Assembly: GCA_011032825.1 (NCBI GenBank)
Contig: JAADJZ010000031.1
Span: 248,001 to 312,000 of the forward strand
Direction of reading: 5' to 3'
Source: Massariosphaeria phaeospora
Lineage: Eukaryota > Ascomycota > Dothideomycetes > Pleosporales
DNA length: 64,000 nt
The stretch's first letter is position 1; each line of letters begins with the position of its first letter. The notes under the pieces were generated by a model. That model was not told where the DNA came from. It ran no database searches and saw only the letters and a list, made by a program, of their open reading frames with translations. Positions 21,370-51,269 of this stretch are shown piece after piece. The position numbers were made by a program, and so were the translations under genes.

Positions 21370-21371
21370 TA

Positions 21372-23510
21372 TAGTGCTCGTGCGCTAGATAAGCTAGTAC
21401 AGCTAATAAGCTACTTTAACTAAAATTAGCAACTGCGAAAATGAAGCTGTACAGCTACATATTAATTTAACTATTATAAGATTTTCTAGTGTATTACTAT
21501 ATAGAGGCTTGCGCATCTTTTGCACTATTTGAATTTTTGTAGTACCTTGATTTGGCGGCCTCGCGTGGTGGTTTTAGGTAGAAGCTGCGGTAGCAGAAAT
21601 GCAGCATTAACACTACTTGCAGCACCTACAGCACGACGCTTTTTTGTAAATTTTGCTACAGCGCTGCGTAAAGCTGCTTGCTTGTTTTTGTTTAGTGTAT
21701 CGCAAGATTTTTGTAAAGTTGCAGCGTCGCGTTGCTGCTTTTTAAGCGCGCGCGCGGCGGCTAGCTTTGCAGCCTTCGCTTTCTGCTTTTTATTAGCACG
21801 CTCCTTTGCAATTTGTCGCAGCGCTTTTGCTTTTTTTGCTATCTGCTTTTTGTATAGTGTAGCTGCAGCTTTGAGCTCTTTTTAGTAAGTTTTCTAGAGT
21901 TTTCTCTGCTTCTCTTTGTGTTGTTTGACTATTTCGCGCACTTAAGCTTCTTAGATCTTGCGAGGACTCTATAGTACAGCGCTGCTATAGTACTCCTTGC
22001 GCTGCTGTAAGTCTAAGACTTTTACTCTTTTTTTTATGCTTTCGTTTAGTAGTAAGTGCCGCGCGGAGGCTATTGTTTTCGTAGTAAAGTAGCTTGTTTT
22101 AAACCTGTAGAGAGTGTAATGTACTAGCAAAGCGTTTAGCTTTATCTTTTGCTTTATTTAGAACCGCAGCGTCTAGAATTTTTCGTATATCATTTCAACT
22201 ATTTCTATTACTAAGCTCTTGCAGTTTTATATTCTTATTTTAATTTAAAGTAGCAGTGTTAAAGCGTTTAAGTATAACCTTTGCATCTATTAACTACACG
22301 CTTGTAGCTTTAAAACTTTTTTGTATAGTTTTTTTTCTTATTGTAGTGCTCTACGCTAACTAGAATATTAGAAAAAAGTTGCTTTTTTTAACGCTAATAA
22401 GCTTTTGCAATTGGTGTAAGTAGTAGTTAAGTTCTTGCAAGTAGTAATTTAAAAGAAAAAAGAACAATACTACATTAAGCAGCTGTAAAGTGTAAGTTAA
22501 ATAAAGAGAAAAAACAGCTAGTAGAATTTTATTAGCGTTGCAAAAGTTTATAAACTCGCGCGTAAAGTAGCTGCTATAGCTGTTAACAAGAAAGAAGCGC
22601 TATTGCTAGCGCGCTTTTTGCTTTGTGTAGCGCTCAAACAGCTGCTTAAGCTAAACTAATTCGATATTGTTATTTGTTTATCCTAAAGTTGAGTTGGCTA
22701 TAAATACTTAGTGTTTTCTAGCTTCAACGTCGTTAACCTAGCTTAATTGCAAGCTAGCTTTTCTTTCGTAGATAAAAGCAAGCGGCAGCGCTTTACTATT
22801 AGCGCAAACACAAGCTAAAAGCGTAATCTATTCTCTATTGCTATCTTGTATAGCTGCCGTACGCAGTTTTGCCTACTAAACTGCTTTAGAAAAAACGCGT
22901 TTTGAGCGTGTAGTAATGCTAACAAAGAAGCTTTTTTTATCTATATTATAGGTGTTGCGCGCTTTAACGTTGTACTCTTGCATTTTTTTATGCAGTAGTT
23001 GAAAGTATAGGTTGTATTTCTTATGTAAGTTAGCTTAGTAACGATTGCAATTAATTTTAGCGCTTTATTTGGTAGTAAGCTCGGCTTTATAGCAATGTAG
23101 AAAGCGCGAAACCTACGCATGTAAAGCTTTCTATTTTGCAACTGCGCTAGCGAAATTTTGTACTATTTCTTTTGTTAGTAGCAAGCTTTGCTTTGTGCAT
23201 CTTTTTATGTACTTTACAAGTTCTTGCTTTTGTTGTAGGTTAAGTAGTTGCCGTTGTTTTAATGCAGCTGTATAAAACTACGTTCTACTTTTATGCCGTC
23301 GCAATAGTGTAGTGCAATTAACACTAAACTATTGCGCAACTTTGCGGTAAAAGAAAAATGTACTAGCTTTACGCAATTCAATTGCTTCAATCGCAGCCTT
23401 AATTAAGTTCATGTTAGTAGAGATGCGACGCGTTAAAGTTGAGATAATGCATATGTTTTGATGCGAAGTAGCTTATTAGCTGTACCGGCTTATTCGGCGC
23501 ACGGGCACTG
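21372..23510 (-). mobile_element. Fot1-like element 2, second family (2,139 bp, RIP-mutated)
   Basis: Imperfect inverted repeats of about 45 bp (left TAGTGCTCGTGCGCTAGATA; right, complement starting CAGTGCCCGTGCGCCGAATA), flanked by TA at 21370-21371 and 23511-23512. The transposase is on the minus strand, N-terminus near 23.42 kb, basic tail near 21.55-21.88 kb. It abuts element 1, sharing a single TA. Its length equals that of the element at 51270-53408, and both have the same plus/minus tail sequence, so they are one family. Confidence 0.9.
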
Positions 23511-24667
23511 TATGCGCGGAAACGCCAAATGCGCGCCTAAACAACATAACTACCGTTTTACAAATAAAGTTATTAAATTACCTACAATAACTACTATTAC
23601 GAGATTTCGTAGAAAAGTAATAAAGTTATGCTTGCGATGAATTTGTACTATTTATATTTGTGCGAAAAGTTGATTATGCAGCTGCAACGACTAATTATAG
23701 GCGAAGCAGCTAGTGCAGCTTCTAGAGACGCTGCACGAGCTGCAGCACTACCAACGCGTCGCTAGCGCTTAGGCTTAGATAAAGTTACTTGTAAAATCTT
23801 GCGCTTGCTTAATTAAAACTGTTGTATAGCTTTTTTAGTGTTGTTGGCTTTAATTTTAGCAACGCGTTCGGCTGCCTTCGCAGCTCTCTTTTGCTTTTTT
23901 TGAACTTTAGCTTCTTCTCGCGCTACACGCTTTTTCTCTGCGATTTTTTCTTTGTATAGCTTTGCAGCCTATTTAAGAGCTTTAGTGTTAGCTTTTTAAA
24001 GTTGCTCTTTGCATTCTAACTACTGCTTTACGCTTTTTTAAAAGCGTGCTTCTCTTATCTTACGCAGTAAGTAAAAAACAGCGCTACCGTAATACTCTTC
24101 TTTTTGCTGCAAGTTAAGTACTTTGCTTTTTTTATTGTGCTTTTTTTTAACTTTAAGAGCGTTTTTAAGGTTCTTGTCGTTGTGTTTAAAAAGCTTGTTT
24201 TAAACTTGCATGTAATAAACTAGCTTAGCTAGCTTTTTTAACTTTTCTATAGTAGTATCTTTGATTGCAAAGCGTATAAAACGCTCTATCTAAAGCTAGC
24301 TAGTATTTTTAAAAGTTAAAAGTTGTTTACTTTTGTCTAAAGGCTTTAGAGTAAAGCGTTTGAGTATTACGTTCGCATCTATTGGCTAGACTCTAGTAGC
24401 TTCAAAGAACTTAAGTATAGTTTCTTTTTTAAACGAGATAAGCTAGGACCTCTAGAATAGTAGAAAAAAGTTGCTTTTTGTAACTAGTAACAGTTTTTGA
24501 AAGCGCTAGAAGTAAGTAGTAAGCTTAGTAGTGTAGGTAGTAAAAAGTAGCTTGAATATAACAACGTTAAGCGCTTAAAGCGTGTAAGTTGAATAAAGTA
24601 GAAATACTGCAAGTAGTATACAATAGGCCTCGCAGTAGTTAAAAAAATCCATTAAGAAGTAGCTGCC

Positions 24668-25140
24668 TATTACGATCAATAATCCGCTAAGCTGCTAAAA
24701 GAAAAAAATGCTTTTACTTTAGCGCTTAAAGTAACAAAGCACGGTTATACCTTAGGTAAGCTTAGCACGTAAGCTAAAAACTTTTCTCAACAACATAGCT
24801 TTTCTATATGCTTTCTTTAATTTTACGCTCTCTATAGCACCTCGAGAGTAAGAAATTAAAGTGCTTTTATTAATTTGCTAGCTTTGTAAGAGCAAGAAGA
24901 TTATACAAAGCACACTTACGTATATAGTTAAAACAATAAACTTTTATAGCTTATCGTCTTCAATTTTACAATCTACAAATTAACTTTTACTTTAACTTTT
25001 ATACTCTTTGCAAAACGAAGCTTGCTACTGCCTTAGTATTAAACGCTATACAACTTCTTTTAGTCTATTAAACTTACTTATTCTCTAAGAACTAACTTAA
25101 GCTTAATAAACAACTTTTTTAAGTTCGCTTAGCTTTTACA
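24668..25140 (+). repeat. 5' LTR of the gypsy element
   Basis: Begins TATTAC (from TGTTAC by a G-to-A change) and ends TTTACA. Aligns end to end with the 3' LTR; nearly all differences are transitions, with the 5' copy more strongly mutated. Confidence 0.93.
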
Positions 25141-28100
25141 TATTAAAAACTTTTAAAATAAATAATACTTTAATAACTACTTTTTTTTATACTCGCACTA
25201 GCAGTACGAAAGTAGCAAAGCTTAACTTTTACTATAAGAATCGCTTAAAGCTAGAGAACTAGTTACTCTAGTTCGACTTTTTCTTTAAATTTGAAAATAA
25301 CTATGTCAACGACGTTAACAAGGCATCTCTAATAGCTTTTTACATAAAAAGAATAGCTTTTAAGTAAGTTTAACTTTACTTAAAGAAGTACTTAAATAGT
25401 AACAACAACAAAGACATAATTACACGCATGTTTAAAAATCGCGCTGTGTTTAAAAACAAGCTGCAACAATTTTATGCAATTGCTAACAAACTTGCTATCG
25501 CAGAAAAAACTATTTAACAAATGCGCTAAACTAAGTTAGCTAGAAACTACGCTAACCTGTTTTAACAGTACTTTATCTAAACTAACTAGAACAACAAAGC
25601 ACTTATGCGCATGTACAAGCAAAGGCTAAAAAATAATGTTAAAACAAAACTAATGCGCTTTAGAGCAGCTACAGACACTTTAGACAACCTAATTAAAAAA
25701 TTAATCTGCTTTAACAATAAATTGTACAAACTTGCGATTAAAACGCGAGCCAAAGCAAAGTTCTACGTACTAAAGAGCAATAGAAGTTATATACTTAACA
25801 CTAGCTAGCGTTAAGTGCAAACTTAACACTTGCGCCTAGCAAGCGTATACAACTTAGCTTAAAAATACAAACTTATACACCTCAACAACTTTAACAAAAG
25901 CAAACTAATTAACAAACAATTAAAGTATAGCAAGAAAACAAGGACTTGCTATAATTGTAGCAAACTAGGCTACATCTCTAGCAACTGTTACTAAAAGAAC
26001 AAAGTTGTTCAACAGTTAAACGTACTATCTAATACTACGACTAGTATTAATAAAGAATAAAAAGTAATTACTTTTATAAATGTTAAGAATTAGAAAGAAT
26101 AGTTACCTAAAAGAATAGGTTTAGCTAAAGAAAAATTGCTTTGTAACAATACTAACTCTTTAATAAACGAAAAATATAAGTTACTAGATAAGCAACTAAA
26201 CCTACCAAATACTACAAAACATTAGAATTAGATTATTAGAAAAAAACGAGTACGAAGAATTTATTAATCTAACACTTTATTTTAAGACAATGTACTTAAT
26301 TACAACGAAGTAGTGTAAAAATATTTTAACAAGCTTAACTAATAGCTTACAAAGAAAAACAAACAAGGAATCTATTAAAAGCTTAAAAAAACAAAACGCT
26401 TTAAAGAAAACATTTTACTTTTAAATCTAAACAAATTGGCTACTAAAGAACACTAGCACGACAAAGTAGCAAAAGAATTTTAACAATGCTTTAAAAAGAA
26501 ACGCAACGACGCGAACTCTTACAAACTATAGTACTACTTAAACTACTAGAATCTAGAACACGCGAAAATGTTATAAATAGTGTGCTTTTACGACTACTGT
26601 TTTACTTATTACTCTAACAAGCAAGGCACAGAATAGTTTTCTAAAAGAAAAAGCTAATTCTGCTTTTAAAAGTAGTTTAACTGCAAAAACAACACTTGCA
26701 AATACTACTTATAAAACAAACGCGGCATATTGCACTTCTTTAGAAAAAATAACTTAGCAAAACTGCTTGCAATGCAAATGCTTGTAAACAACAACTGTAC
26801 TTAAGCTTAATAGCAAACCTGCTTACACTCTAACTGCGCACAGCATTAGACTTTTAAAAAAGCTAACAAATTTAGTACGAAGTTTTTTTTAGGCTAGCAA
26901 CGCTTAACTTTAAAGTTAGACATATTAACGTAATTAACCTAGCGAAATAGATTAAGCTCTTAGTAAAGCTTAATAGTTACTTGATAAAAGCTTTAATCGA
27001 CATAGAAGCATAGAATAACTTTGTTTTTACTTAAGCAGTATTTGTAGCCGGTTTATACCTACTAGAGAAACAACAGCTTTATCTACTTGCTAGTGCTAAT
27101 AAATAGCTTATACAAGCGCAACTAGTAGTTATACACAAAATAAGTAACGTACTATTGCACATTAAACAATACTAAAAGAAGTTAGCTTTTAACGTTTTTA
27201 GACTAGCTATCTACGACATTATTTTAAGACTTTTTTAGTTAAGAAAGCACAATCTCTAGATTAACTAGAAAAAAAACACGCTTTTGCTAGAGTGTTGTAA
27301 AACTAGCGCTTCTAACACTATGCTTGCGCATTAGCAAAGTTTAATAGTAAATAAAAAAACAATTAATATAATTGCATTAACAAAGAACAGCTTTAGAATG
27401 CAAAAGTCTAACTTAACAAATACTAACTTAAAGCTTTTAGATTAACAAGTTAGAGTAAAAAAAAAAATTAGCGCACTTTTAAAAATACCTTACGAGTATA
27501 AAAAGTTTAGACATTTTTTTTAAAAAGTAGTAGATGCAAAAGCATTACTAGAATACAAACTTTAAAACTACAAAATCGTTTTACAAAAAAGAAAGCAACT
27601 AACTTTTAGCTTAATATATAGACTATTAGAAAAAAAGTTAAGCACACTTCGCGATTACATTAAAAATAACTTAAAAAAAAGTTACATACGACTATTACAG
27701 TTACTTGCAAAATACTTAATTATTTTTGTACTAAAAAAAAAACAGCGTACTACGACTATGTGTTGACTATTAAAAACTTAACAACATTACAGTTAAAAAT
27801 TAATACTCTCTACTAAACATTATAGAATTATAGAATTGATTATTCTACGCAAAAGTCTTTACAGCGCTTAACCTACAGGATAGTTACTACTTTATTAAAA
27901 TTAAAAAAAGTAAAGAATAGAAAACAGCGTTTAAAACGAGATACAAATACTACAAATACACTGTTATGCTATTTAGGCTTACAAATGCTTTAGCAACTTT
28001 TTAAAAACTTATTAACAACGTGTTAAAAATGCATTTAGATATCTTTGTCGTTGCTTATCTAAACAACATTTTTATTTATTTTAAAACTTAAAAGAACTAT

Positions 28101-30765
28101 GTTGAACATGTCAAAACAGTGCTAAAGTACTTTAACAAGTTTAACTTTTAACTTAAACTAAAAAAGTGCGAATTTTACAAGCGCGAAGTTGTATTTTTTG
28201 AATATATAGTAGAAGCAAACAGAGTACGCATAAGCGAAAACAAAATCAAAGTAGTTAAAAAATAGCTGCAACTTAAGAACGTTAAGAAAATACAATTCTT
28301 TTTAGAGTTTCTAAACTTTAACTAACAGTTTATTAAAAATTACTTAAAAATTGCTATACTTTTAACAAAGCTTACGCGAAAAAATACAGCTTTCGCATAA
28401 AGCAAAAAAGCAGAAAAAGCTTTCTAATAGCTTAAAAACGCAAGCATTAGTTTACTATGCTTTTGAATATTTTAAGCAAAACAACTTTTACGCTTTAAAA
28501 CCAACGCGTTAGATTTTGCGCTAGAAAAATATGCTAGTTAATTGCACAAAGGCAAATAGCACTCTATTGCTTACTACTTACGTAAGTTTTTAGAACTTAA
28601 AGAACAATACAACGTGCATAACAAAGAGCTGCTAGCTATTGTTGCATACTTACAGCATTAGAGAATATACGCAGAAAGCTACTTAAAACTTACAATATTT
28701 ACGAATTATAAAAACTTAGTTAATTTTACAACTACTAAAGTACTTAACTGAAAATAAGTTAGATAGTTAGAAATGCTAGGCTAGTACAAGTTTAAAATTG
28801 TGTACACACTAAAAAAAAATAACAGCAAAGCTAACGCTCTTAGTTAACAACACAATATTGCTAAAACAAAGAAAATTATTAACACTGCGATACTTAAGGT
28901 TAACTAAAACGAATTACTAGAACTAGCGAGAACGCTAAACGTGCTTCTAAAAACTGCAATTATAGTTTTAAAAAAATTGCAAAAAGCAGTTATACAACAA
29001 TATTACGATAACCTAGTTTACAGTTACTTTAAAATTACAAGAACAATAAAACTTATCAAGCAAAACTACGAGTTTAGCAGAATAAAAAACAAAGTTACTG
29101 CAATTATCAAGAAATGTGCAAACTATTAAAAGAACAAACATAGTACCTACGCACTTTACGAAGAAATGCAAGCTTTAGAGCTACTAGATAAGCTTTAAAC
29201 TAATATCTTTATAAATTTCGTAACAGAATTGCTTTTGTTAAAGGACCTTGCTATAGGAATAGCCTACAACGCTATTATAGTTATAGTTAACTAATTTACT
29301 AAGTACGTAAAAATAATACTCTTTAAGAACACGTACACTGCGCAACAACTAAAATTCATTTTTTTAAATCAACTTATTCGATACTATAAAATACTTAAAT
29401 TGATTATTAGTAACAAAAACAAGCTCTTTACATTGAACTATTAAACAACTTTGTTAGCCGCAATTAAAACAAAACGCAAGCTATTAATAGCGTACTATCT
29501 ACAAACAAACGAGCAAATAAAAAGAACAAATTAAACTATAAAAACATATCTAAGAATATACAGCAACGAATAACAAACTAATTAAGTAAAGCTTCTACTA
29601 ATAGCACAATTAGCGTATAACAACAAGTTGTTTGAGTTTACAAAACAAATACTGTACTACGCGAATTACAAGAAACACTTACATTTCTTTAAAAAAACGC
29701 TTTTAAGCGCGAAAGCTAAGACTGCTACAAAAATAGTAAAAAAGCTTAAAAAAGTACATAAGTTACTACGAAGTAAACTTAAAATAGCGCAACGCTAAAG
29801 CATTTTATATGTTAACTAAAAACAAAAAATAGCACTTTAGCTAAAGAAAGAGAATAGAGTTTATCTTTTTACAAAGAATTTGCGCACAAAACAACTAAGC
29901 AAGAGTCTAGACAACGTCAAAGTTAAACTATTTTTAATATTAAAACAACGAAGTTTAGTTAATTACAAATTAAACTTGCTTAAAGACGCAAAGATCTACC
30001 TAGTATTTTACATATTCTTGTTAAAACTAGCTAACTTACAAACGCTACTCTAGCGAACCTTTCGCTATAAAACTAAAAAAAAAGACAAATTTAAAGTTAA
30101 AAAGATTATCGCACACTAAGTTGTAAACAACTAAGAAAAATACCTAGTTAAATAGTTAAGCTACCTAGATAGCGAGAATACATAGAAACTAAATACAAAC
30201 TTTACAAACTGCTACTAGATCTTAGCACAGTATTGTTAAAACTAGTTAAGTACAACAAAACGTTGCTTTTTTACACTTCGTTACTAAGGCTATCTAACGC
30301 ACTCTAGGTAAAAGAAAACATTGCTAGACTATTAGAAAAACTTGCAGTTGCTTTTTGCTATTCTAGCAACAAGATACTTGCTTTTTTAACTGCGATTGCT
30401 TTCGCTGCACGCTTTGCATTTTCGCGCAGCGCTTGCTTAACTTTTACTGCTTTTTTCTTTACTACTTCTAGCTAAGCCTAAAGACACTCGCGCTCTTAAC
30501 AAATAAGCACCTATTTATTTTTTAAAATCTAAATATTACAGTTTTTAAGACTTTAACAATTACATTTATTACACTGTCTTAAACAAACATGCACTTTGCA
30601 AACTAAGCTTGCAAAACAACAGCTTTAGCAAGCAACAGGCATAATGTTCTTAAACAAGTTAATAAATACTGCAAAGTTAAAACGTTGTGTGGTACTGTTA
30701 GAAAAAAAGGCTTTTAGCATAGCAAAAAAAAGCTTCAAAAACGAAGCATAAGAAGAAGAAAATAG

Positions 30766-31238
30766 TGTTACAATCAATAATCTGCTAAGCTGCTAAAAGA
30801 AAAAAATGCTTTTACTTTGGCGCTTAAGGTAATAGAGCACGGCTATACCTTAGGTAAGCTTAGCACGTAAGCTAAAGACTTTTCTCAACAACACAGCTTT
30901 TCTATATGCTCTTTTTAATCTTACGCTCTCTATAGCACCTTAAGAGCAAGAGATTAAAGTGCTTTTATTAATCTGCTAGCTCTGTAAGAGCAAGGAGATT
31001 ATACAAAGCACACCTACGTATATAGTCAAGACGATGAACCTTTATAGCTTATCGTTTTCAATTTTACAATCTACAAATTGACTTTTACTCTAACTTTTAT
31101 ACTCTTTGCAGAACGAAGCTTGCTACTGCCTTAGTATTGAACGCTATACAACTCCCTTCGGTCTATCGAACTCACTCATTCCCCGAGAACCAACCTAAGC
31201 CTGATAAACGACTCTTCCAAGTCCGCTCAGCCTTTACA
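30766..31238 (+). repeat. 3' LTR of the gypsy element
   Basis: Begins TGTTAC and ends TTTACA (TG...CA). 473 bp, the same length as the 5' LTR. Followed directly by the CTGCC target duplication at 31239-31243. Less mutated than the 5' LTR, especially in its last 100 bp. Confidence 0.94.
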
Positions 31239-32124
31239 CTGCCATGGCCGTCGACGATAAGAAAACGCTACGCTCGCTCGCGCCGCGCTTTCTTCTTTGT
31301 GCAGCAGTCAAACACCTGCTCTAGCCATGCCAAACTAACGTCGTTATTAGTCCAACCAGATAGAGATGAGGTAATAAAGACGTCGTGCTTTTCTGCTTCA
31401 ACGTTGGCTACCTATAATAACTGCAGTGTACTGTTTGACGACTAGAAGATAATGCTAGGCAGCAAAGCTGTCCTATTTTCGCAGACTGCTGCTAGAAGCG
31501 TCACCTACTCTCTAGAGCCATCCTAGAAGCTTGAAGTTACTTCTTTTTTATTCTATTAACGCTTACTAAAGACTCTTTTTGAGCGTCTTGTAACACTAAT
31601 TATAAAGCCTTTTTTCATCCATATTGTACGAGTTCTTGGGCAGAATATCGTACTCTTTTATCTTGCTATGCAGTAGGTTAAAATAAAGCTTATACTTCGT
31701 GTAGGAGTTGGCGAAGTAGCGGTTAGCGTCCATGCCAGCGCTCTATTTAGAGATAAGATAGTTACTGTTTCAGTTGATAAAGCGCGTAACCCACGCCTTG
31801 GAGACACGTGTTTTAGCAACACTAGAGGCGAAATTTTGTATTATAACTCTTGTTGGTGGTAGTCTATCCTTTGTTAAGCGCTTTATATAGAGCACGAGCT
31901 TATACTCCTGTAGTAGGCTGAGTGTTTGTTGTTCGGCTGCGAGCTGGTCTTGGGAGCGTGTCTGGGCCTTGTGCCTTCGCGTCAGCGTTGACCGCACAAC
32001 GCCATAGTGGCGGGCAATTTGCGTGTAGCAGATCTTTTCTTCTAGTTCTTGCGATTCGATTTCTGCAAGCGCGTCGTCAATTGGAGCCATAGTGGTAGAG
32101 TTATCGCGTGTTGAAGTATAGGTG

Positions 32125-34520
32125 TCAAAACAGTAGATTGGTGTTCGGCGCGCATTTGGCGTCTCCGCGCATAGCGCGCACGGACACGGTAGCTTCGTAC
32201 CCAGCGGATGCCCTATCGCACAGGACAAGGGACTCTTTATAGCGATGCCGAGGTGCAAGGAGGTGAGCAAGACAGTACACGCTCGTCAGCGTGTCTGGAT
32301 GCTCATGCCCGAGTACCTTCTCGCATATCGCTAGCTCTTGCTTGTGCATCGCCTCCGCCTCTTCGTGCTTGCCCTGGCTGTTGAGCACTTGCGCCAAGTT
32401 GTTCATGCTCCGTAGCGTGTCTGGATGCTCATGCCCAAGCACCTTCTTCCTCCGCGCCAGCGTCTGTCTGTGCATCGCCTCCGCCTCTTCGTGCTTGCCC
32501 TGCCTGTTGAGCACCAGCGCCAAGTTGTTCATGCTCGTCAGCGTGGATGGATGCTCATGCCCGAGCACCTTCTCCTTCTGCGCCAGCGTCTGTCTGTGTA
32601 TCGCCTCCGCCTCTTCGTGCTTGCCCTGCCTGTTGAGCACTTGCGCCAAGTTGTTCATGCTCCCCAGCGTGTCTGGATGCTCATGCCCAAGCACCTTCTC
32701 GTACCGCGCCAGCGTCTGTCTGTGCATCGCCTCCGCCTCTTCGTGCTTGCCCTGCCTGCCCAGCACTGCCGCCAAGTTGTTCATGCTCCCCAGCGTGGAT
32801 GGATGCTCATGCCCGAGCACTTTCTCGTACCGCGCCAGCGTCTGTCTGTGCATCGTCTCCGCCTCCCCGTACTTGCCCCCAAGCTCCCTCGCCAGCCCTA
32901 GCATGCCCATGCTGCTTAGCGTCTCCGCACTCTCTTCGCCGCATACCTCTTCCCTGACCTCCATCGACACCGTCGACATGTGCCCCGCCTCGCCTGCTCT
33001 TCCTTGTTGCCATGCGTACCACGCTGCCTTGTACAGTAGCAAGGCCCACTCCTTCAGCGACTTCTCGTCCTTAGGCCGCTGCGCCAATGCCGCCCTCGCG
33101 TGCGGAAACAGCGCCTGGCACTTCGCCCAGTTTTCGTGCTGTCCGTAAGGCAGCTCTGCGCAAAGGCTGGCAATGAAGCGCTCCCGCCATTTGTCCACTT
33201 GACCCTGGCTCTTAAGCCACGTGCGCGTAGCCAGCTGTACCAGGCTGTGCATCTCAAACGTGCTTGCATCCCTTGTGACCGTGATGAACGAGTAGTCTCG
33301 AAGTGTAATGACACTGTCCTCAAAGCTGTCGTCGTTCGCTGTGCTGCTCGGGCGGCGCAGCAGAGCTTCCTGTATCCCCTGGCGGTCGAAGAAGCTCATC
33401 AGTGACAGCAGGTCTGCTGCTGACTCCCTTGTGTTCCGTATGTAATCGAACGAGATCTGCCATGTTATCAGGACAGAGTTGCTAGCTGTTTCGTCCCGGC
33501 GAAGCTGACCCGCCTCTCGGTTCAGCAGGCTTGTCTTTCTGCTGTCGCTCTGCCGGTACTCCTCTAGGTACTGCAACACCGAGCATCGCGGCGCTCGCTC
33601 TCGAATGTATGCCGCTGCCTGCACAAGAGCAAGCGGCATGTGATCGAGCGTCGTCGCTAGCGTAGCGATGCAGTCGTTCTCTTCTCTAATGCCTCTTAGC
33701 TTCTTGCGGAGCAGAGCGTGTGCGGCCGCATCGTGCATTGGCGGGATGGGTACAGTGTCGCTGTCCTCCACGACCTGCATCGCTGCGCGCCTTGTCCGGC
33801 TCGTCACCAGCACTGAGCTGTGCCTGCTTGAGGGCAGATACCGCGATAGATGCTGCTGGAGAGCGCTGCCACCGCCGCTGCTGATCTTACTACCGTCGCC
33901 TGTCGGAGAAAGAACGGCAGCATCGTCAGCGTTATCCAGAACCAACAGCCACCGTCCGTTCTTCGCGTCGCGCAGCCAGTCGTGCACCAGCCTGAACACA
34001 TCCACCTGCGGGTCCTGGCGGCCACGGACCTTAACCTGGTCAGCGATCTCCCAGAAGCTCTGCTCTAGTCGCGCAGTGTTGCTGGCATGCACCCAGAACA
34101 CCCACGTCTCTGGCGACTGCTTGGCGGTGCGGTAGCAGTGCTCGATGGCTAGCTGCGACTTCCTACATCTCGTGTTAGATGCGAGCACTAAACTCAGGCG
34201 CCCTCCGCTGGACTTACCCTACCCCGCCGAGGCCCACCAGCGCGACGCGAGAGGCTGGCGCAGCGCATCGCTCGCGGATCTGGTCGAGCAGCGTCCCGCG
34301 GTCGACAAAGTCGGGGTCGCGGCGGAACGGCACGAAGCACGAGGGCTGCGGTGGTGTCTCAGGACGTTCTGTGTAAGGAGCGCGATTAGCGCAGCGCTAG
34401 TCAGAGCGGAAGCAGGCACTTGCCGGGTGCAGCAACGTGGATAGCGCCAGAGTTGTGGCCTACTTGCAGCCCAAGGTTGCCGTCTCCTGCGAACGTGATG
34501 TTGGTGCTAGTTTGGGCCAT
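32125..34520 (-). CDS. NLR-type receptor: sigma-like amyloid motif + NB-ARC + TPR, 3' end interrupted by transposon
   Basis: STAND-type receptor in fungal programmed cell death. Exon 1 is 34520-34424, exon 2 34368-34218, exon 3 from 34162; introns are 55 bp each, the first with a GC donor (GCAAGT). Residues 9-28 hold the motif FAGDGNLGLQVGHNSGAIHV. NB-ARC: Walker A GLGGVGKSQLA (split by intron 2), Walker B WLLVLDNADD (residues ~154-163), VLVTSRTRR, MPLAL, and an MHD-like MHSLVQLATR near 387. TPRs of 42 residues (VLGHEHPDTLxSMNNLA) fill about 455-740. At 32190-32191 the frame enters the transposon and stops at 32125. The uninterrupted gene, adding 19015-19220, would be 809 codons. All recognised domains lie before the break, so a truncated product could still act. 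The open, unmutated frame shows RIP has not hit the gene. Transcribed divergently from the HeLo gene. Confidence 0.9.
32290..32920 (-). repeat. 126-bp tandem repeats encoding TPRs
   Basis: The string GCTCATGCCC (plus strand) recurs at 32301, 32427, 32553, 32679 and 32805, a strict 126-bp (42-codon) period. The inner four units are almost identical and the outer ones have diverged. Such near-identical units are prone to gain or loss by recombination. Confidence 0.93.
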
Positions 34521-34815
34521 CCTACCTGGCAGCGACCCGGTTCATGTAGGATGAAGAGAGCCTCGCGCAGACAGATAAATGCTCTGGCGCGCGAGGCTGA
34601 ACTGTCACGGGTGGGCGGTCGAGGCGGGCTGGGCTGGCGCTTCAGCTGAGCGGCTGGCTTGTTTTGCGCGCCTCCAAAAGAAGAACCACAGCCTGCCGTC
34701 ACTACCGCTCTCACTTGTACATCAAGAGTCGTAAGCAAGTGCGAAGCACAAGCGCATCTGCTGCATCTTCTTTTCTCTCTCGCGTTTCCACCGTCATCAT
34801 TGTCTCTACCCCAAC
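34521..34815. promoter_or_regulatory. Shared divergent promoter of the NLR and HeLo genes
   Basis: 295 bp separate the two start codons (34520 minus, 34816 plus). No other gene fits here. The HeLo side has a pyrimidine-rich leader (CATTGTCTCTACCCCAAC before the ATG). No clear TATA box. Divergent sharing would let effector and receptor be expressed together. Confidence 0.6.
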
Positions 34816-35610
34816 ATGGCAGAGGCAGCCGGCCTTGTTGTCGGTGTTGTTGGCCTCGCTGGCCTACTTAACAACACAGTCGAGTGCTTTGAATTCGTCC
34901 AGCTCGGCCGCGCCTTCGGAAAGAACTTTCAAACTAGCCAGCTCAAACTAGACAACGCAAGACTCCGCTTGTCGCGGTGGGGCAAGTCTCTAGGTCTAGA
35001 CGGTAATGTCCGAGACACGGTATCGCTTCAAGAGCGTTTTGGGTCGGAGGCAAACGTTAAGCACGCTGAAGCCTTGCTGGGCCAGATTGTAGAACTGTTT
35101 GCGGAAGCTGAAGGCGTATCGGACAAATACAAGAGCCGGACAGAGCCTCAGGACGGCAGCCTCGTGGTATACGATCTGCAGACAGACCTAGATCCGGCGA
35201 TAGCGAAGCTCCATCAGAAAATGCGCCAGCTAGCTATCGAACGGCAGAACCGGTCTGGTGTACGGCAAAAGGCCAAGTGGGCACTGTACCAAGAGAAGCA
35301 GTTTAGACGGCTGATCGAGGACATTACCGAGTTGGTCAGCGATTTGGACAACCTTTTCCCCGCCGCTCAGCAGTCCCAGCGTGAGCTTTGCGACATCGAA
35401 GTGTCTACCATTGGGGAAGGTCAAGGCCTCTCTGTGTTACAAGAAATTGCCGCAGCCCAAGACAAATTGCTAGAGCAGGCTATCACGAAGGCTACAGAGA
35501 GTGCTGGAAAGTCGCACCACATCGTCTTTTCAGGCAGTGGTAACACTGGTCTTCAAGTGGGCCACAACTCTGGTACGATGTCAGGATTTACATTTGGGAG
35601 GGGCAGCTGA
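34816..35610 (+). CDS. HeLo-domain cell-death effector with C-terminal sigma-like amyloid motif
   Basis: Single exon, 264 aa. The N-terminus MAEAAGLVVGVVGLAGLLNN followed by CFEFVQLGRAFGKNFQTSQL and LRLSRWGKSLGL is a typical HeLo domain (residues ~1-215), the helical domain of HET-S-type proteins whose hydrophobic N-terminal helix inserts in membranes. A short linker leads to the last 31 residues, HHIVFSGSGNTGLQVGHNSG and beyond. The core GN-T-GLQVGHNSG (35539-35574) matches 11 of 12 positions of the NLR N-terminal motif next door. In known systems such motifs form a beta-arch amyloid: the NLR nucleates it on ligand sensing and converts the HeLo protein into a membrane-disrupting form. Function here is inferred from that architecture; no toxicity is shown. 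The frame is intact and free of RIP-type stops. Confidence 0.88.
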   Translation: MAEAAGLVVGVVGLAGLLNNTVECFEFVQLGRAFGKNFQTSQLKLDNARLRLSRWGKSLGLDGNVRDTVSLQERFGSEANVKHAEALLGQIVELFAEAEGVSDKYKSRTEPQDGSLVVYDLQTDLDPAIAKLHQKMRQLAIERQNRSGVRQKAKWALYQEKQFRRLIEDITELVSDLDNLFPAAQQSQRELCDIEVSTIGEGQGLSVLQEIAAAQDKLLEQAITKATESAGKSHHIVFSGSGNTGLQVGHNSGTMSGFTFGRGS

Positions 35611-35765: not shown

Positions 35766-35991
35766 CACTGCAGGCCTAAGGAATCAAGGCTGCGGGTTGG
35801 ACACAACTCCGGCTCCATCGAGACCCACATCTATGCTGCTGGTAATTGCCCGACGCTGCGCTAATCATCCGTGCTCTGCAAAACGACCTGAGACTCTACC
35901 ACAACTCCTGCTCCGTGCCGTGCCGCTGCGATGCAGATCTTGTCGACCGCGGAGCGCCGCTTGAGAAGGCCAGCTTAGCGAGCTTTACCTA
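35766..35991 (+). pseudogene. 5' remnant of a second sigma-motif NLR gene
   Basis: Plus strand. Bases 35787-35837 read RLRVGHNSGSIETHIYA, close to the NLR motif. A GTAATT donor at 35842 and a GCTAATC branch site follow at the same place as intron 1 of the intact NLR, then (35883 on) CCTGAGACTCTACCACAA matches the NLR exon 2 start, and VPCRCDADLVDRG matches its VPFRRDPDFVDRG. The acceptor is damaged (CTGCAAA). No start codon is evident and the sequence ends at the TA (35990-35991) where nest 2 begins. It is a truncated paralogue lying tail-to-head behind the HeLo gene. Confidence 0.78.
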
Positions 35992-36755
35992 CCGTGCCGA
36001 CGCGCTAGGCGAGCCGGGTCGCACGACGAGCCACGAACACCAAAATACCAAACTAGGCCCAAACTTCAACACCTCATAGCTCTACCACTATGGCACCAAT
36101 TGACGATGCAATTGCAGCAATCGAATCGCGCGAACTAGGAGAGAACTTCTTGTACTAGAAAATTGCTAACTAGTTTAGTGTGAACAGAACTACACTGTCG
36201 CGAAGACACTAAGGCTGTTAGACGAGCTAGCAAGCCTAGCACGCTGCCCAACTTAACCTTAACCTACAACAAGAAGCGCAACTTGTACGGCATATTAAAG
36301 ACCTTACAAAGAGAGCCTTGCCTCTAACGAGAGCTATAGTCAAAAATTTTGCGTCGCAATTGGCTAGCAAGGACGTTAGCCTCACCTGGGTGAACCGCTT
36401 CATCCAGCGAAACGGCACTTATCTGATCTCAAAATTTACCTCTAGAATCGATTCTTAGCGCTACAACGCTAACTTAGGCTTTAAGTACAAGCAATATTTT
36501 GAGCTTTTGCACTTAAAAATTATTTAGTATGACGTACAGCCTCACAATTCTTACAATATAGACGAAAAAGGCTTCATAATTAGTGTTACAACGCGCTCAA
36601 AACGAGTCTTTAGCCGACGGCAATGGGAGAGCAAGGAGGTTAGAGCAGCACTGCAGGATGAATTACGTAAGTAGATAACACTGCTAGCAGCTATTTGTGC
36701 AGATAGAAGTACTCTGCTGCCCGGCCTTATCTACTAGTCGGCGCAGCGCTTCCAA

Positions 36756-39700
36756 CAGTGCGTACTACGTCGTAGTACGGTACGCTAGTACGGCGTAGTG
36801 AGCCGTACGTACTTGGCGAGTGAATTGGGTAGTAGCGTAGCGTAGTGGTGACTGTTTGGGAGCCGTACTACTGCAAGAGTACAGCGCTAAGAGACTAACT
36901 CTTGGCTCAGATTTGTTAGCTCTCCCATAGTAATCTGCGACGCGACGCGTCGCCCGGCCGCCAAGGGGTAGCTGGGAGGGGGCTGGGTGAATGTTCCGGG
37001 TATATAACAGCAGCTGTACGCACCTAAACAGTCACCACTTGTCCATCTCTTCTGCCTATTATGAGTTACAGTCAACGCTCCCAGCTGCCTGTTATTGCTC
37101 CCATTCCATCCATTTTTCACGCAGGTTCGTCCAAAAGACTCGGCAAAGCTCGTGCCACGACTCCCATCTCGCCAGCTTTATCAAGTACGTCATCTGGTGT
37201 TGTACATGAGCTGCCGGAGAGTGACTTTACGGTGCTCGGCGAGCGGTTTGAGGTCAACTTCGAGCGCGTTTCTCGCCGTGAGGGTCGCCTCGTGGCGTTG
37301 CGATTGGGGTATCGGGTGAGGCACAAGAGCTACCTAAAAGGCAACTGCTGCTTGGCTCCTATCTAGGCCTATAGTGTTGAGTTAGTGTACGTTGAGAATA
37401 ATAGAACTTACTCAAAGTTGTAGCTTTGCAAGCAATGCTATTAATCTCGCAGCTTTAACGACGCTAAGTTAGTTAACGGCACCGCCTATATTACTTAACA
37501 CTTTTAGAAAGCTTACCGAATTGATCCTGTAACCAGGCTGCTGCTAGAAACGCTATCTAAATCTCGATTCTTGTTGCTCTTTGAAGCTGCGAAGGTTGCT
37601 AGTACTAGTACAATAATAGCTTACTTTCTCTAGCAAGAGAAAGCCCTCTAGAGCGCGCTAGTTGACTAGGTAATTATAAAAAACGTTAGCTTTGCTGTAG
37701 CTGTGTTTACAGCTACGAAGAAGTTGCTAACGTAGAACTAGTTGCTGCTGCTGCTAGCGCTGCCAAACTTAGCGTTGACTTTTCAAAGGTATGTGCTTAC
37801 GGCGCTAGCGAAGCGGAAAGTCGAAGTAAGAAAGTTGTTACAAGCGTCTAAGAGCAAGATTAGTATTAGTATAAACGTGTAAACGTTAAGTAACTACCTA
37901 AGCTTTCTTAGTGTTGTAGCCTACTTTGTCGGTAAGTTCTTTGAAGTGCGAGATTTCTTCTACTTAGCGCGCGAAAGAACAGCTGCTAGACGTTTAGCGC
38001 TTGCTCTTACTAGCCTAAACAGCTTTACGCGAGTTTTTATATAGCGCTAGTAGCAAACTCTAAAGAACACTACAATTGCTAACGAGCTTGCAAATGCTAA
38101 TTTCAAACAACAAGACACTATTATCGCTTTTCGAAACTTCTTTGGAGACTATACTAGCGCTGCCCAAGCATCTATCGTACGCGCTGTCTTTAATAACTAC
38201 GAAATATCCCAAAAGTTCTACTGCTTTGTAGGTAATAACGCAACTAGCAACGACTTAAAGCTTATTAAAAAACTTAACCTATATCTAAACGTTAACATTA
38301 ACGCTTTACATTGTATACGCTGCGCTAGCTACATTATCAACCTCGTCGTAAAGGCAACAATATACGGGAACGAAGTTAGTAAATAAAAAGAAAAGCTTGC
38401 AGCTGCTGCTTTCAAGAAGCAGTTTAGACTATTCTAGAAGCTTAGTGTCGTTGGTAGGCTAGCGAATAGGTAGAGGTTAAGTTAAAGTTGAGTTGCTTTT
38501 TTTATAACTCTAACTCAACTCTACTTATATACTTAATCTTTCAACGCTAGTATAAAGTTATAGTTGAGTTAAGTTGCATAGATTTTAGATTAAAGTTAAG
38601 TTATCTCGCACAGGCTCTAGGTTATAGTTAGGTTATAGTTAAGTTGTTATATTTAGAGTTTACATATTGTATTTTAACGTTAGCAAAGTACAAGTTGCTT
38701 AAGTTTATTACAGATTGTTATTACAGCGTAGAATTAGTTGCATTTTAATAGCTAAGTACAAAGCAACGTCTACGCTAGGTATTGCTAAAAAATTTAAAAT
38801 TATTATAGCTTTATACTGCTAAAACAAGTAGCAACTAGACTTTAGCTTTTACATTTGCTGCAAACTTTCTTTGTACTTTTTGTAGTATTTTTGTGCTAGA
38901 TTTATGTTTCTTGTGTTAATTGTTACTTGTTTCGCGTGTATAGCGTTAATATTGGTATCTATTAAAGTTAGCTTTGCACTTAGCAACAAGTAGAAAGCTA
39001 TACCTTTAAAGATGCTAATTAAAAAAGCCTTTGTTACTTCTTGTATAGCTTTAATTGCACTAGCTTAAAAGCGTAGATTAGGCTTAAACTTTTGCGCAAT
39101 TTTGCGAACTAGCTAACTAAATAGCAGTTTGCGCATAAAGAGCTTAGTTGATTTTTAGTATTGTTAAATTTCGCGCAACGCAACAGCTGCATGTTGTTAA
39201 AAACAAAGCTGCAATTAACTGCTGTAATAACTTACTTTTTTGCTTTTAGCAATAAAGCTTTTTTACACTACTTATTGTTAGTTTTTTCTTGTTCTTGTAT
39301 AGATTGCTAGATTTGCGAGTTACTTTTGCTGCGAAAAGCTTTTGCGAAACCTTGCCGCTAGTAGCAAAGTAGTAGCAGTTAGTTTGCTTAGTGCGGGCTA
39401 TTGCAGAAAAATTAATGCGTAATAAGTGTAGTGTAGAGAGTAGAAAGTCGTAATAATTATTTGTAATAATTACGGCAGGTAAGAAAGCTGCAGAAGCTGT
39501 AGCAAAAGTGCGTGTTTTAAGTAGCTAGCAGCAAAGTGCTAGCTAAAGCTGCAGCTTTTGCAGCAGCGCATAAGCTACTCTACACAGAATTTAGCTTGTA
39601 AATCTGCTACTTAACTTTTTGCTACTTTACTTTCTGCTTTTACCTACGTACGTACTACAACTAGCTTTATTATTACCTACATTTATTACAAATACAATAG

Positions 39701-42700
39701 CTGCAATTAAGCAGAAGCTTAACGACAAAATAAACTACGAGCTTGATAATAAATTGCTTTTGCTTTACGAGATTAAGGTTTTGACTAAGTTTAAGCTAGC
39801 AGAGTAAAAGGCGCTTACAAATGTAATTATTACAAAAGTTTATTACAGCATCTGCTAATAGATTTAAAGCTTTGAATTTAAAAAGCACAAAGTCCTTAGC
39901 GTACTAGCAAATCGCGGTTGCGTTGAATTACAAAAAAAGCGCTCTACACATTACAAGCTACTGTTTAAGAGTTAATTAAGTAATACTGCCTACGCGACTG
40001 CTTAAAGAGATTAAACAGCTTACTTAAGTGCTAAAAAAAAAGCTATTGCAAATGCTAGTGCAAAAGATTAGTAAGCAAAATACTAGCTTAAGAAAAAGCT
40101 TAAGGCGAAAAAAAAGTTTACTGCGTTGTTTACGCACGACTAGAAAAAGTAGTTAGCAACTAAACTTAAGCTTTTAGATAAGCAACGCTACTGCGCACAG
40201 AAAAGTAGTAAGTTATTATATTAGTTTATTACGTTATTGTACTTACAATACGCAGTTGAGTAGCTTTAAGCAAAACTTAGCCTTGCCTATAAAAAGTAAG
40301 CTTGTATTTATTACAATGTTAACTTTTAACAGTATAGAAACATTTTTGAACAAATTGCCAAAGCACTAAAAGACAAAAAAAAGATTAAGAATTAGCTAAT
40401 GTCGCGAATATTTGGCGCTAGCGAGGCTACTAATAGAATTATGCAACGTATCTACTTAGACAAATTAGCTAAGTTAAAGAATAATTCGTTTAAAAACGAG
40501 AAAGCTAAAATAGATTAGCAAAAGTTTGTAAAGACGTTGACTCTAGAGAATCTAACACTAGTAACTGCTAAAAACTAAAAGTAAGTTATTATAGTAGTTT
40601 ATTACATACTTATACTAACTGCACTAGCTTACGCGAGCCTACGCTTTCTTTTAAACTGCGCGTTAATAGCGACAATGCTTATAAAAATATCAACAGCTCG
40701 TATATTCTAGCGCTTACAATTAATAAGTGTAAAAAAAAAGCAAGTAGCAACTTAAAAATTAATGCGTTCTACAATAAGTGTAAAGACGAATATAAAATAG
40801 AAAATTAGTAAAAGAAAGCGTTAGCAGAAGCAAACAAGTCTTTTAGTAAAAATAAAGAAAAAGTTAAAAATAAAAATAAAAATAAGAAGTAGAATAAGGT
40901 AGTAGATGAGGCAGTAGAGCAAACTAAAGTAGTAGAGCAAACTAAGTTAGTAGAGTATTTAAATTAAAAAAGTTTTTTTAACAATAGTAACGCTTATAAG
41001 AAAGCGCAAACCTAAGGCTCTCTACTTTTTATGTAAATTAAAACGTTGCTAGCATAAACATAGCTAGTATCTACTATTTATAACGCAGCCTAAAACGTGC
41101 ATAACATTGCAATTAACAAATTAGCAAGTATAACTTAATTAGAACTGTAAGATTAAAGCGCTACTACTGCAGCTTTAATTTTAGCTTTAATCTTAGTTGC
41201 ATTACTGCTTTAGTCTTTGCGCTTAAACGTTAGCAATATTTCGCAAGCAGAAAAGCATGTTTTGTTTTTCTTTAACAATCTGCGTGTTTTTCTTTGGCAA
41301 TGTATTTATTCTCTATTTTTAGTTTACTCTAACACTAATTATTACAGTTTATTATTACAGTACCTGCGCTTTTGTACTATACCTTTTGTTATAAACATAG
41401 CAAAACTTTTACTACTTATTTGTTTATTTAAATTCAACGCTAAGCAATTTGTCTAAGAAAAAGAAAAAAATAAACTACATCTAGTAAAATATTCTTTTAC
41501 GCATATTAAAAATAATACAGAACAAGAAGTAGTAGTAACTGCGTAAAAAATGTAGTAGAGTTCTACTAAGTAGGCTTTAGACTTAAAAATAGCAAATTTG
41601 CGATAGAACTTTGCTGTACGCACTAGTTAGGTATAGCTATAGTTTAAAGAAGCTGCTAATTCTAGTAATAGCTACTTCTACGTATTCTGCTATAATTGCA
41701 GCTTTACTCTTTAGCACCTAGCAGTTAAAACTATTAAAACTAAACACTTACTTAACTACTTTGAATCTAAGACTTGCTAAAGAACGCTTGCTTTTATTTA
41801 CTTTTAACCTCGTTTACAGCTAGCACTACGTTAACTTTAATTTACTACTATTGTACTACTATATTTAACTTAAGCTTTTAAATAGAAACTAGTACGAGTA
41901 GTTATATATAGCAACTAGTTTTTTCAAACAATTAAGCGGCCTTTATTTTAGCAATTTCTTTAATTTCTTTAACCTAATATTCTAAGTATTAGCTAATTTA
42001 AATTCTAAAGAATGTTCTATAAACGATTTAAAAAAGCTAAAGCATTACTTTTTAATAACATTAGCTAGTTAACTAAAATCTCAATTGCGATAGATAAGTA
42101 GTTTGCTTCTAATTATTTTAGTTTTTTTGTAGTTAAAAGATACTACGTTAACTGCAACTAGCAGCTTTAAAAAAAGTTGCTAGATTTCGTTTCTCTACGC
42201 GGAAAACATACTAGTGCTGCTGCAGCTGCTAATATACTGCAAGTACTCTTAAACACTAGCATTAAATTACGCTTTTTAGCAATTACTACAGATAATGCTA
42301 AAAAAAACAAAACGCTTAGTTGTGTTATTAAATAGCAACTAAAAGCAAAGAACATACTTTAGAGCTTATTAAAAAACTTAATTTTGTGTCTTGCTTACAT
42401 TATTAACTTTGTTGTTTAAAATATTATTTTACACTTTAAGCTTGCAGCATTAGCAAGTGCTAACGTTAAACTAAAAGAAATACTACAAAGACGCTATTTA
42501 AGCGACGTGCAAGCAAATATCTTTGTTTTAAACTTTTTTTGCAAAGTACACAGTGCGTTATTATATACTTTTATTACAGCTTAACATACACCTAGCTTTG
42601 AGCTATCTGCATAGCAATTAATTTGTTGTTTTAACAATACAAGCGGTTTATCGCTACGCAACTATACTTGCTACTAAAACAACAAATGTCTGTTATTCGC

Positions 42701-45700
42701 AACGTTAAAATACAATAGAATTTAACTTACAATATGTGCAAGCGCGCACTTAAAATTTAAAAATTTATTAACAAATAGCTAGTAAAAGAAATCGCACTTA
42801 AGATAACAATTAGTGTAAGTAGTATTCTAAATAATAAAAATATAGCAAAAGTAAACTTCTGCGACTTTAAGCAACTAAAATTAACACTAAACAAATAGCA
42901 CTACTTAAAGTTAATTACTAATATGCTTAAAAACTTTAAAGACGCAACAAACTTTTTAAGTAAAAACTATAAGCTACAAGTCTAGTATATCTAGCTTATG
43001 TACAACTGTTTTTTTAACTTTTTAAATAGTATGCAAAACGAACTTAACGACGACATAAAAAATTAAAATACTTTTAAGTAGCTTACAGTTGTACAAGCTG
43101 CTGCAGATAAAAAAAAAGCTAAACTTAGCAAGTATTATAAAAAAACTAGTAATAAACAAAACTTTTTATTTAATTGTGCTACTATTTTAGACTTTAGCTA
43201 AAAGCTTACGGCGTACAAAGTATAGTTATTATAGTTACTTATTACAGTTATATGCTAACTGCGCGTTTAAAACGAAACTTAAAATAATCAAAACAAGCAC
43301 ACCTACTGCAAAGAGTTTTTTAATTACTTTAATTGCTATAACAACAATACTTGCTTTGCTTTTACTTTTATTTCTTTGTTCTATACAACTAGACTCTAAA
43401 GTAGTAAATAGTTTTAAAAACTAAAGCTTTTGCTTTAGTTGCTGCCAAGCAGTTTTTTATCTATTAACTTAAACAAAATAAAAGAAAAAAAGAGCTTAAC
43501 TCGCTAAAAAAAAAAGGCTTATCTAAGCATTGCCTGCGTACGCGCTAGTGCTTCTTTTAATATTCTTAAATAGTAGTAAGTAAATAAAGAAATGTATCTA
43601 CGCTTATTACAAGTTGCAAAAGATGTACTTGCAGTACAAATTGCCTAAGTTAAAGTTAAGCGCGAATTTAACGTTGCTAAAAATGTTATTAGCAATAAAA
43701 AGCACCAACTTGCTGCCTAGACAATTTGGCAAATTATAATATTAAAAAACTATATTGCTTAAGAAAAAGAATAGAACAGCGTTTCTTAGTTTGCAAAAGC
43801 AGATAATAAAGAACTACTATGTAACAAAGTTAAGAACTTACTTAACTTTTAAGCGTAGTATGTAAACTTTACTTTTAAGCTTACATCTACGCTTATACTT
43901 AGCTCGTTATCTAAGTTAACACTTAGGCTAATATCTAAGCTTATACCTAGCTTATTATCTAAGCTTACATCTAGGCTTACATCTAGGCTTTTACAATTAA
44001 GAATAACTCTGTTAGATAATAATTTAAGAGAAAAGAATTCGCTACTTCTGCTACGAAAGCGCGCTCGACTTCTACGCTACTGTAATTAATATTTGTAGTA
44101 ATACAACTTTTTTTACTCTACTTGTGTTCTTGTACGTGAATAGTAGCTGTAATAATAAAACTTTGTAAATACAATTTGCGCGTTCTTAAATGTAATAACT
44201 AGCTGTAATAACTTTTTAAACTTTAGCAACTCTTTAAGCTAACACATAACTCTATAACCTAAATGTAACTTTTAACCTAACTCTAACTCTAAGCTTTAAT
44301 TACTCTAACTAAACTATAACTTAACGCTTTAATAACTCTAACTTAACTTCTACCTACGCTAGAGTAACTATAACTTAACTTTAACCTAAAGTCTGTGCGA
44401 CTTATAACCTAACTTATACCTATTAATAAGTACTCTCTACTTATTCGCTAGCGTAGTTGTTAGCTGCTTTTACAACTTCGTAAATGCTGTCTGCGTGTCT
44501 TATAAGCGCTAAGAGCTTTTCAATAAAATGCAAAGTAAAGTATACAACGAGCTTCTGCTGTTTTTTGCTACTTTCGAGCTTCGTTAAAATAGTAGCGTTC
44601 GCTAGAACAGCGTTTATTTTATGCTCTTTCGCTGCTTCAAGCTTAAGAATCCTATCAAGCGCTTTATCTAGCGTTTTCGAAAGGAAGCTAAGGCTAACAA
44701 CGACGACAACGACTTCAAGAACAACCTCAACTACTTTCTACTTACCAACTAGATTTTGGACGACGACTAGAACGACGTTAAAAAGCTCGTCGACTTTCTC
44801 CAAGCGCTATATAAGATAACAAAGCGCTTCGAAAGTAACAATAGTTAAAGCAGCTTCAGCTTACTTTAGCAAACTCTTTTCAACTTTTAAGCACTTTGGA
44901 CTTACTATACTAACGCCAAGAAGCGTACGCTAAGCTAGTACATAGCGTTAGCAGTGTCTTTTGAGTAGAAAAAGCTTAACTTTTACTTTTACACTCTTAT
45001 TATAGCGCCTAACGTTAGCTACTACTTCGTTGCTACTCTTTTCTACTCGCGCTTTCGCTTCAACTAGTTTCAATCGCAGTAGAAAAACTACCTAGAGTAA
45101 TACCGCAAAGCGCGCAAATTGCTTGAGAAAGTTTTCAAAGACTACCTCGCTGCTAAGGCTAAAGCTAATAGTAGCTAAAACTTACTACTCGAGCTTCTAT
45201 CTTAGCGAAAGCTTTTATCTAATAGTAACAGTAGTAACCTCTACAAGCGTACGATAACTGTTAACCTACACTTTCTTACCAACGCTAAGAACAAGCGCTA
45301 GCGGCAAGCTAGGCAAGTAGAGAAGTACTTCGAGTTACTTGTAACAAACTTTACTACTAGCAGCAATCGCGATCGTAAGCTGCTTGACGACCTATAGCAG
45401 TAGTAGCTTTAAGTTAGCCGTAACCGCTACTTTATTCTCTTCAAAGTTGCTACCGACTTTCTCTTAATTCTATCTACGAGCTGCGACTGCGAGCGCGCCT
45501 TTAGCTTCGCCCGACGAACAATTACGTGCGACCGCAATTTACTTTATAGCAATACAATTAAGGCAATACAGCTACAGAAAGAGTAGTTGAAGCGCGAAGT
45601 AGTAAAGAGCTCGCTCCGAGAGGTCGAGAAATACGTGCAAAACCTCGATAAAACGCGAGATCTAGAAGCAGCTACTTTACTAGCGAGCTTTTTCTTTTTC

Positions 45701-49055: not shown

Positions 49056-49174
49056 TACGTTAATAGTTTTTGTTAGTGTTGCAATAGCTTTATCTTTGAG
49101 GTAGTAAGCATGTTGTTCGTAGCTCGTTGCGCAACTCGGCTTGCCTACGAGGAGCTCGTTTTTAGTGAAGCATA

Positions 49175-51267: not shown

Positions 51268-51269
51268 TA

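Follow-up and report, generated by a model that had tools for sequence, protein, structure and literature searches.

A 64,000-nucleotide stretch of the genome of the pleosporalean fungus Massariosphaeria phaeospora (C25:248001-312000, from an assembly of 42 Mb in 51 contigs; hereafter, the window) harbors two divergently oriented genes that form a candidate amyloid-signaling pair: one for an effector with a HeLo domain, the other for a receptor combining an NB-ARC domain with tetratricopeptide repeats (TPRs). The effector gene (34816..35610, plus strand, stop codon included) is a single exon of 264 amino acids (aa), supported by its match to the HeLo model PF14479, by phmmer alignment to the solved chain 2wvn and by the ratio of nonsynonymous to synonymous divergence (dN/dS) from a paralog on contig C31. 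The receptor gene (34520-32125, minus strand), assembled from reading frames, encodes 761 aa in three exons (34520-34424, 34368-34218 and 34162-32125). The start codons, at 34816 (plus strand) and 34520 (minus strand), are 295 bp apart, matching the initial annotation of the locus.

Both proteins contain the core GN-T/L-GLQVGHNSG, which differs at one of 12 positions and sits at opposite ends of the two proteins, with 11 residues following it in the effector and 13 preceding it in the receptor. Smith-Waterman alignment returned one block of 26 residues, 16 of them identical, with a score of 82 that none of 2000 shuffled effectors reached (maximum 78, mean 38). Once the last 32 residues of the effector were removed, its best score against the receptor fell to 36, that is, to shuffle level, with no further similarity detectable. 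The earlier proposal that the two proteins share a motif, and that they resemble each other nowhere else, was thereby upheld. A scan of all six frames found two instances of the strict core NxGxQxGxN in the window, against 0.007 expected from residue frequencies. Across the inner 18 residues (IxFxGxGNxGLQVGHNSG), 14 are identical, and because seven of these are specified by synonymous codons (the other seven by identical ones), the codon pattern fits better with protein-level conservation than with recent copying.

Class of the shared motif

Profile searches assigned the effector's C-terminal motif (aa 232-257; 35509..35586, plus strand, with the core at 35542-35568) to PF17046 with 33.7 bits and the receptor's N-terminal motif (aa 3-28, core at 34452-34478) to the same family with 28.0 bits, both scores referring to the full proteins and to a cut-off of 23.2 bits. 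PF17046 is thus one motif family that lies above its cut-off in effector and receptor alike, and no other amyloid-motif model matched when the terminal pieces of both proteins were scanned separately. Given the NxGxQxGxN core at the effector's C-terminus and at the receptor's N-terminus, the motif pair is, by its sequence signature, of the PP (pseudopalindrome) class. A pseudopalindrome centered on Q has been described on HeLo, Goodbye-HeLo, sesB-homolog and STAND proteins (PMC3321046), and the PP core given in PMC9815663, NxGxQxGxN, fits the motif exactly.

Architecture, relatives and paralogs of the pair

The effector matched PF14479 with 185.8 bits over aa 6-208. This was the only HeLo-type family among the four Pfam families listed for the protein, and no HET-s repeat model was among them. 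phmmer aligned the effector to the solved 'small s protein' chains 2wvn, 2wvo and 2wvq at E-values from 1.8e-36 (2wvn) to 9.6e-33. Because two of these three alignments begin at residue 1, the N-terminal hydrophobic stretch of the effector is covered by the HeLo homology.

The receptor gene opens with an exon (34424..34520, minus strand, as for all receptor features; the first 32 codons) that holds little but the PP motif, as located by PF17046 and the core. There follow a phase-1 GC-AG intron of 55 bp (34369..34423), placed by the reading frame and the donor GCAAGT; a second exon running up to the P-loop, with GLGGVG at its end (34218..34368); a GT-AG intron of 55 bp that interrupts the P-loop codons (GLGGVG/KSQ; 34163..34217); and a third exon (32125..34162, stop codon included), which, judged by the domain matches of the whole protein, encodes the remaining NB-ARC/NACHT-type NTPase and then the TPRs. 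Both introns were deduced from reading frames, not from RNA, and most homologs compared continue from the motif to (E)RPET without intron 1. The NCBI model of this receptor (P0165, 456 aa, partial) begins past the motif exon, and the motif is missing from that annotation.

When the 761-aa receptor was compared to Pfam, NB-ARC scored just above its cut-off (23.8 versus 23.5 bits) and NACHT below it (24.2 versus 26.7 bits), alongside DUF7779 (35.8 bits) and TPR_12 (255.7 bits). WD40 was not among the families displayed for the receptor (25 of 27); as the initial annotation had anticipated, TPRs stand in its place, an arrangement already published (PMC3321046). The array (32275..32904), evident from a repeat spacing of 126 and from self matches, consists of 126-bp (42-aa) units with ~78-89% identity, in line with the strong conservation among internal repeats described in fungal NOD-like receptors (NLRs; PMC5485727), and its reading frame is intact. 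The receptor hence comprises NB-ARC and TPRs, has no effector domain of its own and adjoins the HeLo effector. Overall, the profile searches placed HeLo and NB-ARC above their cut-offs and both motifs in PF17046.

Homology searches yielded 329 proteins for the effector (E ≤ 0.001; 120 listed) and 3116 for receptor residues 1-420 (120 listed; 131 listed receptors when a further search is included). The PP-HeLo effector family recurs in many Pleosporales, and the strict core lay within the last 60 aa of 102 of the 120 listed effector homologs. Linkage in relatives was assessed by proxy, with entries on contigs of equal size taken as lying on the same contig. By this measure, 24 contigs were common to the 120 effectors and 120 receptors listed, two of them from the window genome itself, and one further contig (12450 bases) was common to the effector list and the second receptor list. 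Some shared contigs are short (5733, 7996, 12595 and 15966 bases); the NCBI organism names agree wherever both entries have one. On three shared contigs (19857, 66664 and 68160 bases), the effector as annotated is without a complete strict core. Two further open reading frames, P0166 (889 aa) and P0027 (421 aa), join receptor TPRs straight to a HeLo-PP effector, representing either a fusion gene or a read-through prediction.

Within the genome of M. phaeospora, PF14479 matched at a minimum of seven places (nine rows), three of them with a PF17046 motif; these counts of HeLo places and motifs are lower bounds. All three HeLo-PF17046 loci found—those of the window, C31 and C1—adjoin a receptor with a PP core. 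The C31 locus has the same divergent layout and an NB-ARC-TPR receptor, with an effector 74% and a receptor body 70% identical to those of the window; its motifs read GNSGLQLGHNSG and GNQGMQLGYNSG. At the C1 locus (C1:794500-804400, local 2119-9900), a NACHT-ankyrin receptor, a HeLo-PP effector split across two frames and a second NACHT-ankyrin receptor lie on one strand. The first receptor region carries the core NRGSQVGYN, which was read separately from the NACHT frame and scored below the PF17046 cut-off (17.8 versus 23.2 bits); the second receptor, on the effector's other side, yielded no PP core. A receptor on C9 (C9:822000-831900, local 3965-7254) is 76% identical to that of the window and is preceded by a SesA domain (76.1 bits) where the PP exon would be expected. 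It is probably an all-in-one form, and no PP core was found at its locus. A related NB-ARC-TPR receptor on C49 (C49:1397500-1405500) has an alpha/beta-hydrolase fragment nearby on the other strand; no PP core was found at that receptor locus either.

Transposons, a second receptor remnant and possible motif exon exchange

The 3' end of the receptor gene overlaps the 5' part of a Tc5/pogo-like DNA transposon that reads leftward (31239..32191, minus strand), which shares 93% identity with a copy on C45 across 935 bp and matches HTH_Tnp_Tc5 with 27.0 bits (cut-off 22.2). The 96% match of segment 32139-32191 to another end of the C45 copy is what one would expect of an inverted terminal repeat. 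Beyond GYEA the receptor is no longer homologous to its relatives, and its last 21 residues and stop codon (32125-32191) are encoded by the transposon end. On the other side of the pair, just downstream of the effector and in its orientation, lies the remnant of a second PP receptor (35788..36031, plus strand; alignment to the receptor gene with a score of 132 and a 116-bp match at 73%). This remnant holds a frameshifted motif with R in the place of the central Q, followed by the segment ERPET-FVDRG (translation LRVGHNSGSIETHI). Beside it is a diverged second copy of the transposon family (36063..36740, plus strand), inverted relative to the left copy and 67% identical to it. The AT-rich flanks (20001-31200 and 37300-52000) resemble products of repeat-induced point mutation (RIP), with TA/AT ratios of 2.11 and 2.15, as compared to 0.79 and 1.15 within the two GC-rich genes, which show no RIP-like shift.

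The confinement of the motif to a first exon bears on a tentative reading, to which we give rather less than even odds: that in this PP family the motif is a stand-alone first exon, exchanged like a cassette from one receptor body to another, and that a single HeLo executioner is shared by two receptors whose sensors differ. Motif and body were compared in 19 receptors with a recognizable junction (three of 22 had none and were dropped). Between two Alternaria receptors, P0135 and P0136, identity is 98% for the body but 66% for the N-terminal motif segment; P0136 and P0151, conversely, agree at 35 of 35 motif positions and at 76% of the body. The SesA domain at the place of the PP exon in the C9 paralog points the same way. 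We had also considered that the receptors fall cleanly into two ancient lineages, each with its own motif tail ('AIHLAAP' or 'SIQTHIHA'). In the receptor-body tree, however, which has 32 tips and was read without support values, the tails are intermingled and SesA-type receptors occupy two separate positions, so that we abandoned the two-lineage reading for that of exon exchange. Since motif and body identities still correlate over all 171 pairs (0.45), exchange is not the rule.

Alternative first exons, an annotation choice or an assembly error could each explain the Alternaria mismatch. Two Alternaria contigs (19857 and 68160 bases) each carry one listed effector and two listed receptors with PP cores; in neither annotated effector is the PP core complete—P0037 breaks off within the motif, and P0087 has a different C-terminus—which weighs against the two-receptor, exon-exchange reading. 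Activation of one effector by different NLRs has been put forward as a possible advantage of two-gene systems (PMC5485727), and exon shuffling in brown algae and recombination of sensor domains in fungi have been mentioned (PMC10197012). In a narrow search, no open-access title or abstract opening named the exchange of amyloid-motif exons. If this reading were true, exon exchange would rewire the signaling output separately from sensing.

Probable amyloid signaling at the locus and its precedents

Taken together, the locus very probably represents a PP-class fungal amyloid signalosome, a HeLo/NB-ARC-TPR pair whose mechanism we read by analogy. Its anatomy, motif class and divergent pairing, its recurrence in paralogs and (by proxy) relatives, and its low dN/dS are all observed here. 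Oligomerization, templating and membrane killing are carried over from PNT1/HELLP and HET-S/NWD2: ligand binding to the TPRs would lead to NTPase-driven oligomerization of the receptor, upon which its N-terminal PP motif would nucleate an amyloid that templates the PP motif of the effector, whose HeLo domain would then insert into the membrane and cause cell death. The seeding mechanism put forward in the initial annotation is the likely one. Amyloid templating between PP motifs is documented in Podospora for an NB-ARC/TPR receptor, PNT1, and an effector with a HeLo-like domain, HELLP: PNT1(1-31) forms prions, as does the C-terminal part of HELLP, each can convert the other, and HELLP is activated and moves to the membrane (PMC7885112).

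The initial annotation had called the motif sigma-like. Membership in the sigma class, akin to het-eN/sesA/sesB of Nectria, would agree with the name of the matching Pfam model, Ses_B, as sesB is part of the sigma locus. That name, however, can mislead as to motif class; some sesB homologs carry a PP extension, which may account for it (PMC3321046). Sigma motifs are described as repeated GxGxQFNxx and GGTQNINT units (PMC3321046), yet GxGxQF and GGTQN occurred in neither protein of the pair, in none of the 120 listed effectors (last 60 aa) and in none of the 131 listed receptors (first 80 aa). With these signatures absent, the PP core present and PF17046 the sole amyloid-motif match of the terminal pieces, we rejected the sigma class, which is highly improbable, and the label with it; the proposed NLR/HeLo amyloid-signaling pair itself stood, based on the family evidence given above (HeLo, NB-ARC, TPR_12, and PF17046 in both proteins). 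Equally improbable is a reading without amyloid signaling, in which the two proteins have the motif in common simply as an adhesive segment or as the outcome of gene conversion. The motifs being nearly invariant would suit such an origin, as would the failure to see pair-specific co-evolution: in a test of the 11 pairs in which effector and receptor both show a core, one from the window and 10 from the 24 shared contigs, motif variants were no closer within pairs than between them (102 of 132 identities versus a mean of 100.2 after shuffling, P = 0.22), and pair-specific co-evolution was set aside. In relatives, however, the motif is conserved at opposite ends of unrelated proteins; its two copies here differ by synonymous codons, and the PP class has a functional precedent in PNT1/HELLP.

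Several further observations, like the missing co-evolution signal, weigh against the PP signalosome reading. The strict core was found in the first 80 aa of only 27 of the 131 listed receptors, each of these belonging to the 79 that begin with M, many of the 131 being fragments or lacking exon 1; likewise, only 10 of the 24 shared contigs have the core in both listed proteins, the receptor on the others being mostly fragmentary or starting past exon 1. In the PP consensus as given in PMC3321046, Q and G lie one residue farther apart than in the motif here, the PP profile matched no solved structure at E ≤ 10, and the AlphaFold model of the effector is poor (mean pLDDT 54.4, pTM 0.48). Five relatives (C9, C31, P0121, P0122 and P0123) extend ~21 to 70 residues past GYEA with a GxD[HD]PxTRxC stretch, in place of which the window receptor has its 21 transposon-encoded residues, and this truncated receptor may be non-working in this strain. 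The module might then be a decaying relic, with a transposon-damaged receptor, a pseudogene for a partner receptor and an effector that alone is still intact and may answer to a different PP receptor, for example that of C31. This scenario, compatible with PP signalosome ancestry, strikes us as possible, if rather less than evenly probable: a transposon end has replaced the receptor's C-terminal tail, the second PP receptor has decayed, and the pair lies between AT-rich, RIP-like stretches, but the TPR frame is intact, neither gene shows a RIP-like shift and dN/dS is low. For the effector versus its C31 paralog, the ratio was 0.159/1.014 = 0.157 (NG86) or 0.178/0.707 = 0.25 (YN00), and for the NTPase region (NG86) 0.190/1.048 = 0.181 versus C31 and 0.139/0.836 = 0.166 versus C9; with dS near 1 these values are rough, and they average over the whole time since the paralogs split.

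Arthroderma belongs to a different order of fungi from M. phaeospora. Among the nearest systems, published in 2012, are pairs of Arthroderma otae and A. gypseum, in which a HeLo protein with a C-terminal PP motif likewise lies beside an NB-ARC-TPR receptor with an N-terminal one (PMC3321046; compared by description); the window locus differs in the second PP receptor remnant beyond the effector and in the transposon-truncated receptor. PNT1/HELLP of Podospora anserina and PNT1/HELLP/SBP of Chaetomium globosum likewise combine the PP class, an NB-ARC-TPR receptor and an adjacent cell-death effector (PMC7885112). HELLP, however, has a HeLo-like domain, and C. globosum adds a lipase effector, of which none was found in the six frames scanned with Pfam around the window pair. 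As the window effector is HeLo (PF14479) and not HeLo-like (HELL), we dismissed membership in the HELLP family. NWD2/HET-S of P. anserina has in common with the pair the HeLo domain (E ~1e-36 to solved chains) and the receptor-to-effector logic, but relies on HET-s repeats and NACHT/WD40 in place of one PP motif and NB-ARC/TPR; with no HET-s repeat model listed and TPRs instead of WD40, this class was set aside, too. The sigma locus het-eN/sesA/sesB of Nectria haematococca also has a terminal motif common to receptor and effectors (PMC3321046), but differs in motif signature and effector domains.

The locus adds another example of an architecture described in 2012 and, taken individually, is ordinary for the field. 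Given the likeness between PP motifs and the RHIM that acts in mammalian necroptosis (PMC7885112, PMC5485727), PP pairs are useful for studying the origin of amyloid-triggered cell death, and each well-defined pair is a test object for it. This family offers natural variants—apparently swapped motif exons, a two-receptor locus and a transposon-ended receptor—together with HeLo relatives of solved structure, and such variants allow one to ask what sets the specificity between PP receptors and their effectors.

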